From: Ruminiclostridium sp.
Lineage (GTDB): Bacteria; Bacillota; Clostridia; Oscillospirales; Ruminococcaceae
Length of the DNA: 39,557 nucleotides
Assembly (NCBI GenBank): GCA_017635675.1
Contig: JAGBLA010000190.1
Coordinates: 1-39,557, forward strand
Direction of reading: 5' to 3'
A program made the translations under genes and the position numbers. This document shows, in pieces, positions 35,610 to 38,999 of the stretch (positions are counted from its first letter, which is position 1; every line of letters begins with the position of its first letter). Below the pieces are notes generated by a model that was not told where the DNA came from, did not search any database, and was given only the letters and a program-made list of their open reading frames with translations.

Positions 35610-37058
35610 ATGGACAACAGCATCTACAAAATACATCTCGGAGCGGCGGAATGTGCCGTGGATCTCGGCGACGGAAGCGAGCGCGGAGAATATGTGAGCC
35701 AGGATTACATACTTAACCGCCTCGGACGTCCGCACAGAGCCATCAGCCTTATGTACTGCTACTACCCGCTCGATAAGGAATGGCCGCAGCGCATAAGCGA
35801 AGCCTGCAAGGACAAGGAAGTTTCATTCGCGTGGGACTACCCTTATGATGACTACTTCACTTACAAGGGCGGCATCAACGGTGATCTCAACGATGAGCCA
35901 TTCAGATATATGCGCGAGATCCGCGCCCACGGACAGGACGTTATCCTCACCCTTACCATTGACCCGAACGTACCCGACGAGCACCTTGTTGCTGTCGCGA
36001 AGGATCTCTCCACCTTCGGACGCATGATGCTCCGCATAAACCATGAATGTACAGGCGACTGGTTCTCGTTCACCAAACGCGCCTCATATCAGCAGATAGC
36101 GGATTTCTACGTGAAATTCAACAATATTCTGAAAGAACACGCGCCCAACGTCAAGACCATTCTCTGCGCGGGCGGAGTTGAAAAGCCCGAGGACACACAG
36201 ATAGAAAAGGAAGCGGAATTTGCTGACGCAGTGCGTGCAACCGATGTATGGTCTATCGACAAGTATATGGCGCTGCACTGGGGCTGGCCTTACGATGTGG
36301 CGGAACACGGCGGCAATTCTCACGGGCGCTCGGCGGTAAAGGACGTATATGATATGGCAAAGCGCAGCCGCGCGCGTTTCAAGGAGCTTTGCGGCGGCAC
36401 AGACAAGCCCATGGTGCTGAGCGAGCTCAACGCTGACGGCGATGTCACGGGAGCTTATGAACAGGCGGATATGATGAAGCTGTTCTGTGATATGCTGAAA
36501 AACGACCCCGACCGCTGGCTCAGCGGATTTACCATGTATCAGTTCCGTGACCGCGGACGTCTCGGACTTGAAATCGAAGACCCCAACGACCCGAATGTGG
36601 GTATTGAGCAGCCGCTTATGCGCACCTACCGCGACATTATCCATGACAGTTTCTTCATGCCGAAAATAACGGTAAGCGGTAATACCGAGCTGCCGATAAA
36701 GCTGCGCTGGGGCGGCGCAGAGGACGCGGAAGGCATAGCGATACCGCTTAACTTCGAGAAAGATCCCGTTTTCTGCGAGGTGACGTTCGAGGAAGAGCTC
36801 AATCTTATGCTGGAGCTGAACGGGCGCTGGTTCTACAAATCCCCGAAGGTAAAAACTATCGACCTTATGAGCGCGTTCTATGATTCACGGCTCACCGAAG
36901 CCAAGGGGCTCACGCTGAAAATATTTGCGCCGCCCGCATCGGGTGAGAACGATCCCGCTGACGGTTCTGACTGGCAGACCAACAGCTACACCGCCATAAC
37001 AAAGCTCCCAACGATACGTATTCGTTACGAAGCCGTCGAGCCCTCAAAGGACAAATGA
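35610..37058 (+). CDS. GH26-like glycoside hydrolase family protein, no signal peptide
   Basis: A 482-aa TIM-barrel protein of the clan GH-A type. The best active-site candidates are E146 in LRINHECTGDW, which resembles the HExNG acid/base motif of GH26 mannanases, and E272 in MVLSELNADGD as nucleophile. Other barrel landmarks are WDYPYDDYF, TLTIDPN, VWSIDKYMALHWGW and FTMYQFRDRG. Residues after about 350 form a separate beta-rich domain of unknown type with FEEELNLMLELNGRWFY. There is no signal peptide or membrane segment, so it is cytoplasmic or exported by an unknown route; the substrate is unassigned. It is monocistronic with GGAGG before ATG 35610 and a strong terminator. A pseudo-enzyme role cannot be excluded. 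Confidence 0.65.
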   Translation: MDNSIYKIHLGAAECAVDLGDGSERGEYVSQDYILNRLGRPHRAISLMYCYYPLDKEWPQRISEACKDKEVSFAWDYPYDDYFTYKGGINGDLNDEPFRYMREIRAHGQDVILTLTIDPNVPDEHLVAVAKDLSTFGRMMLRINHECTGDWFSFTKRASYQQIADFYVKFNNILKEHAPNVKTILCAGGVEKPEDTQIEKEAEFADAVRATDVWSIDKYMALHWGWPYDVAEHGGNSHGRSAVKDVYDMAKRSRARFKELCGGTDKPMVLSELNADGDVTGAYEQADMMKLFCDMLKNDPDRWLSGFTMYQFRDRGRLGLEIEDPNDPNVGIEQPLMRTYRDIIHDSFFMPKITVSGNTELPIKLRWGGAEDAEGIAIPLNFEKDPVFCEVTFEEELNLMLELNGRWFYKSPKVKTIDLMSAFYDSRLTEAKGLTLKIFAPPASGENDPADGSDWQTNSYTAITKLPTIRIRYEAVEPSKDK

Positions 37059-37147: not shown

Positions 37148-37402
37148 TCAATGTATGTTACGCGGTGCAGGCTTTCTGTTGTCCTTCCACACAGAAAGGT
37201 CTTTCGCAAGGGAACGGATCCCGTCCGAAGGAGCGCCGGAGAGTATGCGAGCCTGTTCATCTTTGAGCTGTTCGGCGGCTTCGTGCAGGACGGTATCCAT
37301 AATCTCACCGCTGACGCTCTTTTCAAGCCCCGCAAGTGTTTTGTCAAGCTCTGCTATCTGTCGGAGCATAGCGGCGTGATCCATTTCTATGAAATCTGCC
37401 AT
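37148..37402 (-). CDS. Small phage-type protein, possibly HK97 gp10-like fragment
   Basis: An 84-aa protein with a helical, coiled-coil-like N-terminal half (about 8-50) containing AGLEKSVSGEIMDTVLHEAAEQLKDEQ broken by few hydrophobic positions; the pattern of a helix pair then an Ala-rich helix resembles the start of HK97 gp10-type head-tail proteins. The rest ends abruptly after about 27 residues, whereas that family is usually longer, so it is probably truncated. GAGGTGAT directly precedes ATG 37402. It lies 18 nt beyond the terminator at 37421-37459 and so seems cut off from upstream transcription. It may be only a leftover of the prophage. Confidence 0.4.
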   Translation of the reverse strand: MADFIEMDHAAMLRQIAELDKTLAGLEKSVSGEIMDTVLHEAAEQLKDEQARILSGAPSDGIRSLAKDLSVWKDNRKPAPRNIH

Positions 37403-37420: not shown

Positions 37421-37459
37421 AAAAAATACCGATCTGCATTCGCATGCAAAACGGTATTT
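37421..37459 (-). terminator. Terminator after the candidate immunity gene
   Basis: On the minus strand AAATACCG (37459-37452) pairs with CGGTATTT (37431-37424), with an inner TGCAT/ATGCA pairing, followed by a T run. It closes the toxin-immunity pair and separates it from the gp10-like gene. Confidence 0.75.
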
Positions 37460-37477: not shown

Positions 37478-37798
37478 TTAAGCTGCTTTGATCCGATCAA
37501 GAGCGTGCTGAATAAAATCTTCCCTTAACATCATATCATATTTCTCAAAATAATAAATGTCATGGGAATCCCAACTAAATATTCCGTCGGAGTATAAAAC
37601 TGCACAATATTCATCGACAGTCTTACGTGTAAAAGCATCGGTTATTCTTCCGGATGAAGCGGATATAACATATGTCCTATTCCTTAAATAGCCTAACAGC
37701 TTGCTTTTTTCGTCATTGGAAATTATTTTCTTTTTAAACGCTGACATATTAAAAGTGCCTTCTGTGCTATAACAATAAGCGATATGGTTATCAGTCAT
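37478..37798 (-). CDS. Candidate immunity protein paired with the portal-fused toxin
   Basis: A 106-aa protein I do not recognise from a family. It has no signal peptide, no membrane segment and a mixed charge pattern (TDNHIAYCYSTEGTFNMSAF at the start; aromatic-rich SDGIFSWDSHDIYYFEKYD in the middle). Its ATG overlaps the stop codon of the toxin-like gene by 8 nt (ATGACTGA), as expected for a translationally coupled immunity gene. It is AT-rich compared with the chromosomal neighbours and is followed by a terminator. These are the position, size and composition of an immunity protein, but the role is inferred from context only. Confidence 0.55.
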   Translation of the reverse strand: MTDNHIAYCYSTEGTFNMSAFKKKIISNDEKSKLLGYLRNRTYVISASSGRITDAFTRKTVDEYCAVLYSDGIFSWDSHDIYYFEKYDMMLREDFIQHALDRIKAA

Positions 37799-38999
37799 TA
37801 CCGAACACCTCCATCTTTCCTATCCTTGAGTAATCCTCTGACATTATTTTAAAGCTACCATCATTAGATGCAAATATCATTTCTGTAGGTGCTTTAACTT
37901 TTACGCCAAGAAGTCGTGAAAGCTCTTTGGCAACACAAGTGCCATTTACCTCTTTGCCCGTGTCGCAACAAAGCAACCTTATCTTTTGCCCATGATAATC
38001 GCTTCTTAATGTTATTATTCTTGCTAATTCCGCCGAATCGACCACGCTATCAAAAATTTTAACACTATCTGATGAGCCATGTGCTTTTATATCGTACCAA
38101 TCCTTTTCAGGCGGTACCTTTTCAATCATTTCACCGTATAAGCTTTCAGGGTTATTAAGGTCTTTCGTTACAAAATTTGTACCTTCCTGTGATATAGCTT
38201 TGCTTATATCGGCTGGATTATACGTGCCTTTCAGTATTGCACCTTTTTCGTTTTCGTCGTCAATACCGCCGGGCACCCCGCCACCAGCGCCCCCGCCGGG
38301 CATACCGTCGGAATAACTTCCCATAAAATAACCGTGTTCTCCTTTTATCCAATGCCTTCCTCTTGTTTCAAGTATAGCACGAATCTGCTCATCTGTCAAG
38401 TGCTCCGCGTTCATCTTTTCGAGCTTACCGGTATTCGGGGTATAGATCTCCCTTGTCTTCGGATCCACAAGTACAGCGTCCAGTCCGAGCTTTATGAAGT
38501 TGAAGCCGAGAGGCGGCTTGTCTTCCATTTCTCTAATCTCGTCGAGCTGGTAGATATTATTCTGTAACGCCACAGCGTAAGCGTTCATACGGCTTGCGAA
38601 GTCCCCGCGTGTCAGCTCCGAGGTATCGAATACAAAGTAATAATGTCCGGCTTTCTCTGCTTCCGTGAGCAGGTCGGTGTCAAGCGCGGACTCTATCGTA
38701 TTGATAAGCGGCATAAGGCAGTTCTGGACGAACTGTGATATGGTAGTCTCGGAAGCCTTACCATTCAGAATATCAAGCGGCATACAGAACAGCTTGCAGA
38801 GCTCAGCGGCGTTTGTCTTCTTATTCTCGTTAAGCTGAAGTTCGACACTTGTGGAGCTTGCCTCTTGGAATGAAATGCCGCTGTTCATAACAACAACGCT
38901 ATCAGAATACTCGTTGCCGTAAAGATCGCGCCAAGATTCCTGCAAAGCTCTTATTTCTTCGGGTCCGACTGTAGAATCAGCCTTATCGGTATCAATAGA
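37791..38999 (-). CDS. Truncated HK97-type portal protein fused to a toxin-like C-terminal domain
   Basis: The reading frame is open from 38999, but the N-terminal half of the portal is missing and no ribosome site is seen (an internal TTG lies at 38945). Numbered from that TTG, residues 1-170 are portal C-terminus: LQESWRDLYGN, the core ELCKLFCMPLDILNG, ISQFVQNCLMPL, IESALDTDLL and the NEIR-like DEIREMEDKPPLG. A linker follows (KGEHGYFMGSYSDG, then a Gly/Pro-rich run at 214-228). Residues about 235-384 are an AT-rich domain with H289-G290, and C326-C327 in IRLLCCDTGK, then LLGVKVKAPTEMI. This layout resembles toxin domains with a caspase-like (clan CD) fold. No database check was possible, so portal is fairly sure and toxin is inferred. 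Confidence 0.6.
   Translation of the reverse strand, partial: SIDTDKADSTVGPEEIRALQESWRDLYGNEYSDSVVVMNSGISFQEASSTSVELQLNENKKTNAAELCKLFCMPLDILNGKASETTISQFVQNCLMPLINTIESALDTDLLTEAEKAGHYYFVFDTSELTRGDFASRMNAYAVALQNNIYQLDEIREMEDKPPLGFNFIKLGLDAVLVDPKTREIYTPNTGKLEKMNAEHLTDEQIRAILETRGRHWIKGEHGYFMGSYSDGMPGGGAGGGVPGGIDDENEKGAILKGTYNPADISKAISQEGTNFVTKDLNNPESLYGEMIEKVPPEKDWYDIKAHGSSDSVKIFDSVVDSAELARIITLRSDYHGQKIRLLCCDTGKEVNGTCVAKELSRLLGVKVKAPTEMIFASNDGSFKIMSEDYSRIGKMEVFGND

Follow-up and report, generated by a model that had tools for sequence, protein, structure and literature searches.

The window, that is, the whole stretch of 39,557 nucleotides of Ruminiclostridium sp. DNA that was analysed, carries on its reverse strand a portal gene fragment that runs in frame into a separate domain and is followed by a small gene. 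The features assigned at this locus are listed below.

38421..38984 (-): truncated HK97-type portal, C-terminal half (profile matches and DNA identity to related portals)
38244..38420 (-): C-terminal extension of the portal with its Gly-rich linker (RGRHWIKGEHGYFMGSYSDGMPGGG...), forming the carrier's side of the graft point (linker of locus L033 and DNA comparison)
37794..38243 (-): putative polymorphic toxin domain, H289 and C327 being its conserved His and Cys (leave-one-out HMM and the carriers of its relatives)
37478..37798 (-): putative immunity gene, 106 aa (leave-one-out HMM and position after the toxin domain)
37424..37459 (-): terminator-like hairpin, right edge of the cassette (folding energy and recurrence in related loci)
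37148..37402 (-): truncated gene, a copy of the one conserved 3' of the cassette in related phages (DNA identity)

The ORF joining portal and tail spans 38945-37791(-), starts with TTG and encodes 384 aa, in the order portal part, portal extension, Gly/Pro-rich linker and separate domain of ~150 aa. Its residues 1-142 matched positions 178-321 of PF04860 Phage_portal (9.3e-26), its residues 2-146 matched positions 194-341 of TIGR01537 (8.2e-28), and the portal piece matched phrog_12 (4.1e-35). The TIGR01537 score of 97.5 bits lies under the cut-off of 112.05, probably because the N-terminal half of the portal is missing. Homology to portals begins only at ~38984, upstream of the listed TTG at 38945, and the portal DNA of the window is 74-90% identical to portal genes of L010-L013, L033, L034 and L046. 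A MuF protein as the carrier was rejected, because the carrier matches the portal models PF04860 and TIGR01537 and gave no match to a MuF domain such as PF04233 or PF06152. The small ORF spans 37798-37478(-) and encodes 106 aa, and its start codon, ATG, falls within the last 8 nt of the portal ORF (overlap 37791-37798). The GC content is 0.389 in the tail and 0.346 in the small gene, compared to 0.490 in the portal part, 0.525 in the following gene fragment and 0.502 in the window, and the block of tail and small gene is sharply bounded, from ~38290 to 37474. The initial annotation had described a portal C-terminal half continuing through a Gly/Pro-rich linker into an extra domain, an 8-nt overlap with a small next gene, and AT-richness of both tail and small gene; the profile matches, the coordinates and the GC values agree with it on all three points.

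The fragment at 37402-37148 belongs to the gene that lies 3' of the cassette in L010, L011, L012, L013, L033 and L046 (73-93% DNA identity). The name 'gp10-like' is a weak label for this gene, with E 0.2 only for the fragment against PF04883 HK97-gp10_like, and the full-length copy in L033 gave no Pfam match at 0.01 and no PHROGs match at 0.001. Between the small gene and this conserved gene, the hairpin at 37459-37424 has a GCGA loop and a U-run, with a folding energy of -17.9 kcal/mol and a z of -5.2; its 34-nt pattern, with one free position, occurred in 8 of 82 loci, namely L012/L048, L013/L049, L033, L046 and the window's own L001 and L053, the last being the window itself. The element is truncated on both sides, and the contig ends ~570 bases past the portal piece. 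A search of the window's genome (assembly ~85% complete) with queries from a related phage, run without a positive control, revealed no portal N-terminal half or TerL elsewhere. The locus is thus most simply a prophage remnant, since the portal lacks its N-terminal half, the following gene is truncated, and no match to TerL or the missing half was obtained elsewhere. Beside the remnant, a 482-aa ORF at 35610-37058 (+) looks glycoside hydrolase-like by eye, with no Pfam match above cut-off.

The viral contigs L010, L011 and L012 carry portals 84, 81 and 68% identical to the window piece, in complete ORFs of 527, 667 and 595 codons from stop to stop, respectively. In each of them TerL precedes the portal, the conserved gene follows it, and the tail is different. 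A tape-measure-like ORF comes next in L010 and L012; in L011 the conserved gene is preceded by three extra small ORFs, and the stretch examined showed no tape-measure ORF. The portal DNA of the window, L010, L011, L012 and L033 is 77-87% identical over matched stretches, and the tails differ. In L033, from a Ruminococcus MAG, the linker RGRHYIKGEHGYFMGSYSDGMPGGG is near-identical to that of the window up to MPGGG and then diverges, and the DNA identity between the two extends to ~38290. The tail of L033 is JAB-like by eye, with no Pfam match, and looks frameshifted. In blastn comparisons, identity to L010, L012, L013 and L033 ends at 38361-38290 and restarts at 37473-37461, just past the stop of the small gene (37478). 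Because the flanking identity stops and resumes at these edges, the variable block consists of toxin and small gene. The comparison thus indicates that in related phages one portal is shared as far as a conserved graft point and bears varied tails beyond it, usually followed by a small gene and then by the conserved gene; the earlier suggestion that a portal serves as carrier is borne out by L010, L012 and L033, where the layout is kept and the tail is a different one. The structural module of L033 includes major capsid (PF05065), prohead protease (PF04586), connector, tail-terminator and major-tail proteins, and none of the nine ORFs scanned matched MuF. In L033, the capsid, connectors, major tail protein and protease are all upstream of TerL, and TerL and portal share a single uninterrupted frame of 1150 codons (L033:4306-7755).

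The truncation of the element on both sides, together with the finding of no intact portal with the exact window tail, would also fit a chance in-frame fusion during prophage decay, in which a deletion joined a portal stump to a foreign toxin. However, the gene order of the window recurs in L033 together with an almost matching linker, L010 and L012 show this layout with different tails, as does L011 with its extra small ORFs, and DNA identity to these phages is found on both flanks of the cassette. A fusion made by decay is therefore very improbable, and was rejected because of the synteny and the DNA identity on the flanks.

Portals were surveyed to compare tails and next genes. Portal matches were obtained in 14 of 297 genomes of the family (E <= 1e-30) and 11 of 394 genomes of the order (E <= 1e-25), both counts including the window's own genome and the order set overlapping the family set; further portals came from 15 genome contigs and 23 viral contigs. 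The resulting table had 56 sources including the window, from which L047 (no portal match), L040 and L075 (cut by contig ends) and seven exact duplicates were removed, leaving 46 distinct portals; L030-L032 stand outside the table and have short tails. A portal counted as long-tailed when 90 aa or more followed the core, and a small next gene had to measure 50-135 aa and start -30 to +120 nt from the stop. By these definitions, 22 portals were long-tailed and 24 short-tailed, and a small next gene followed 20/22 and 4/24 of them, respectively (Fisher p 3e-7, a value that ignores kinship and comes from a sample picked by similarity to the window's portal). The two long-tailed portals without a small gene by this rule were L033, where a 40-codon frame is visible by eye ~100 nt downstream of the portal, and L015 (L015:4323-6014), which has a C-terminal P-loop kinase domain (AAA_33, 1.1e-10) and no small gene next to it.

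Several of these tails belong to named families: Ntox50 in L012 (1.6e-19), CdiA_C in L066 (9.1e-9) and DUF4258 in L035 (3.7e-7), with DUF4258 in L056 slightly under the cut-off. The tails of L010, L011, L058 and L061 matched no family above cut-off, that of L011 being metallopeptidase-like by eye. Among nine next genes scanned, that of L061 encodes a CPCC-family protein and that of L066, after the CdiA_C tail, a crAss001_48-related protein, and the other seven matched no family at cut-off. One unnamed tail class is common to 11 portals, and BLAST links 10/11 of their next genes; the only BLAST link across tail classes was between L064 and L066 (E 0.009). The class had been picked from BLAST links before its tail and next-gene models were built, and the models trained on the 11 also matched the pair in L036 and L046, neither of which was in the training set. 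At L036:3588-4186, the tail and small gene of this commonest class are detached and lie directly upstream of TerL; no such detached pair of the window's own class was seen in phages. An orphan cassette was also considered for L046 and rejected in favour of a broken portal, as the portal frame is broken there and the tail follows directly. The Ntox50 tail has relatives in 40 annotated phage records; among the 20 listed, the telling names are minor head, capsid and head-morphogenesis, and none is portal.

The window's own tail domain, with the sequence ...YDIKAHGSS...IRLLCCDTGKEV..., contains H289 and C327 at the positions annotated earlier for the His-Gly and Cys motifs. In alignment A6, all 10 rows keep the Cys and at least 90% of them the His-Gly, one row being too short to reach it. 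A toxin HMM built without the window recovered the window tail at 2.6e-25 among 4847 ORFs. Searching the 297 family genomes with the tail gave four matches besides the window's genome, of which L002, L003 and L005 are true relatives; the remaining one, L004, was rejected as a false match, RtcB-like by eye. The profile search of the 394 order genomes added L067, L068 and L069, and plasmid records added L077 (Rhizobium), L078 (Streptomyces), L079 (Rhodococcus) and the fragment L080, these being four of the six matching plasmid records. Ten further relatives (L083-L091 and L093) emerged when 391 genomes of the class were searched; they come from nine genomes and six genera, four of the ten falling in one genus, and both His-Gly and Cys were seen by eye in all ten; L092 was discarded as a false match, MiaA-like by eye. 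Phage records and viral contigs gave no relatives of the tail, all of which came from genomes and plasmids. Among the members scanned, which did not include L083-L091 and L093, no curated Pfam or NCBIfam model covered the domain at cut-off. The sequence comparisons thus indicate that the tail domain represents a widespread family with a conserved His and Cys.

This one domain is found on differing carriers: the portal in the window and MuF2 in L005 and L067, the latter identified with Pfam (PF06152), the rest being assigned by eye only. By eye, the carriers are MuF-like in L002, L089 and L093, RHS-like in L084, CdiA-like with adhesin repeats in L077, HINT-like in L078 and WXG-like in L079, where an annotated FtsK/SpoIIIE gene lies near the domain; the carrier pieces scanned from L077, L078 and L079 had no Pfam match. 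On MuF head proteins and the other toxin-like carriers alike, the domain is at or near the C-terminus. The initial annotation had proposed a search for other portals with such tails; complete portals with other tails were found, and the genome searches of family, order and class and the scans of viral contigs produced no second portal with the window's domain. The portal carrier of this toxin class is thus represented by one truncated copy.

The domain had also been likened to clan CD (caspase-like) peptidases. The order of the His-Gly and Cys motifs fits this likeness, but no profile or PDB match was significant, and the placement in clan CD is unproven. DUF4347 gave a sub-threshold match (0.008 with the whole ORF, 0.0015 with the tail alone) in 1/7 members, and profile searches of the PDB with the tail family returned chance-level matches only and no solved relative. 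The hhalign probability of the tail family against one CHAT-like protein (L081) was 0.4. The DUF4347 reference search matched nothing, controls included, and the CHAT search of 21 genomes gave one sub-threshold match (L081), so that neither provided a usable reference set; in 60 genomes, no relatives of the CHAT-like protein beyond L081 itself were found.

The same motif order could suggest that the tail is an autoprocessing clan CD peptidase that trims the portal and is no toxin. Most caspase-like domains in polymorphic toxins are described as releasing peptidases, and C-terminal ones may be toxins, according to parts of PMC3482391. In the homologues examined, the tail is at or near the C-terminus, so that little or nothing is left after it to be released. 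Furthermore, unrelated domains occupy the same spot on other portals of the lineage, and the tail has a dedicated small-gene partner. Autoprocessing as the sole role of the tail is thus very unlikely.

The partnership of the small gene with the toxin domain is seen across genomes. Small-gene homologues follow the tail domain in all ten model loci and in L080, and the domain and the small-gene family occur together in the window, L002, L003, L005, L067, L068, L069 and the plasmid loci L077-L080. The small genes of L077-L080 matched a model that predates their discovery at 3.3e-26 to 6.7e-11 (among four sequences). An HMM built from the other nine loci recovered the window's small gene at 1.2e-15 among 4847 ORFs, and in each leave-one-out run 14/14 matches fell within cassette-bearing loci, some of them being repeat copies of one locus. 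In the held-out test, the small-gene family directly followed the domain in 8/10 of the later loci, the eight coming from four genera; L090 and L091 had no recognisable small-gene partner. The co-occurrence of the two genes in other genomes, on which the initial annotation had made its reading depend, was thus found both in the leave-one-out runs and in the held-out loci. These results support the 106-aa gene as the cognate partner of the tail domain and a putative immunity gene, and tail and small gene together look like a polymorphic toxin-immunity pair.

In polymorphic toxin contexts of the RHS, CdiA and WXG types, the standard partner gene encodes an immunity protein. The domain and the small-gene family recur in RHS-, CdiA- and WXG-like contexts (carriers assigned by eye), and in the portal survey tail class and next gene travel together. 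Both observations argue against the alternative of a polyvalent-type effector tail, directed against the host or its defences and delivered early in infection, with the small gene as an accessory or regulator. Portal fusions to PBECR, 2H and InPase have been interpreted in that way in passages of PMC5512222, and some of the tails fit it, such as the kinase-like tail of L015 without a small gene. We consider this role unlikely for the window's tail.

MuF toxins of temperate phages, as outlined in PMC5576092 and, for Bxa, in PMC11699363, consist of a head-module protein with a variable C-terminal toxin and a small downstream immunity gene, and are over-represented in Firmicutes prophages (PMC5576092; PMC11699363). 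According to the survey figures in PMC5576092, a small next ORF followed 89.4% of 191 toxin genes and 25.5% of 952 short ones; the toxin was proposed to be loaded with the head and to act in the infected cell, immunity protecting lysogens. The portals described here resemble this system in their variable toxin tails and small next genes, and mirror its argument from the size of the next ORF (20/22 vs 4/24), and the window's domain itself occurs on the MuF2 proteins of L005 and L067. In contrast, the carrier in the window is an HK97-type portal and not the MuF protein usually encoded beside it. Portals that carry effector domains have precedents in print, with fusions to PBECR, 2H and InPase as well as to Nudix and ART-type domains (PMC5512222; PMC9503650, both as far as their passages on portals go). 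Those polyvalent and NAD-ADP-ribose fusions likewise place an enzymatic domain on the portal, proposed to be packaged and injected; unlike the loci described here, swapping cassettes with immunity genes are not described in these passages, and the term 'immunity protein' is absent from the main text of PMC5512222. Tox-Caspase, as portrayed in sections of PMC3482391, has a catalytic pair of H and C, is C-terminal in some members and is widespread, including in Firmicutes and Caudovirales. It resembles the window's domain in the H and C pair and the C-terminal place of some members, and differs from it, in a comparison by description only, in its T2SS, T6SS, T7SS and PVC carriers and its immunity families Imm36 and Imm57 (PMC3482391). 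Portal-borne toxin-immunity cassettes were not found in the open-access literature, as covered by titles, abstract openings and passages, subscription journals and preprints being outside the scope of the search.

With a probability of roughly 75%, we interpret the locus from these comparisons as a prophage remnant in which the C-terminus of an HK97-type portal still bears a grafted toxin-immunity cassette. The tail domain would be toxic, and the small protein would neutralise it. In an intact phage, the tail would ride on the portal ring and be kept in or at the head. Portals are normally dodecamers, so that probably about a dozen copies would be present per virion. Because the portal stays in the particle, proteolytic release would be needed, and the tail may be freed from the portal by the prohead protease or by the toxin's own activity. 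The freed tail would then enter the infected cell with the DNA and inhibit cells without the immunity gene, which would shield the lysogen. By analogy with MuF toxins, head-loading of the tail, action in the infected cell and immunity of the lysogen are probable. Delivery from the window copy is probably dead, since its portal lacks the N-terminal half, and because this portal cannot assemble as it stands, an immunity reservoir is probably the likeliest remaining role of the locus.

If this reading is true, phage-borne polymorphic toxins are not limited to the MuF protein but extend to the portal ring, which the particle cannot do without, and the mechanistic question arises how the toxin reaches the cell when the ring to which it is fused is left in the capsid. 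The analysis yields specific portal-tail genes together with their candidate immunity genes. It also points to a putative His/Cys toxin-immunity family that phage and cellular carriers share, and no curated model was found for the members scanned. More tentatively, and with a likelihood that we place a little short of even, HK97-type portals of phages of gut Clostridia may form a separate class of polymorphic-toxin carriers: phages without MuF would mount a swappable toxin on each ring subunit, recombine at a short pre-toxin motif such as RYNPYHDPTNGRFTSG, free the toxin by means of the prohead protease and deliver it together with their genome, and chromosomal remnants would persist as immunity reservoirs.

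The motif form RYNPYHDPTNGRFTSG precedes the tail in 10/22 long-tailed portals and also occurs in three non-portal ORFs; on one reading, it may be a joint for recombination or processing. At L035:9547-10737, a prohead-protease-like gene has a C-terminal extension with RYNPYHDPTNGRFTSG, and the sequence after it resembles, by eye, a tail fragment with a small gene; a second structural protein may thus be a carrier. The pair of small ORFs after L035:10697 was rejected as a cassette, its likeness being by eye and the models giving no match at E 0.01. A protease-like gene is located ~4 kb upstream of the portal stop, and not directly 3' of the portal, in L010, L011, L012, L033 and L034. At L036:2873-4186, a 261-aa ORF with the RYNPYHDPTNGRFTSG motif is followed by the detached tail and small gene, before TerL.
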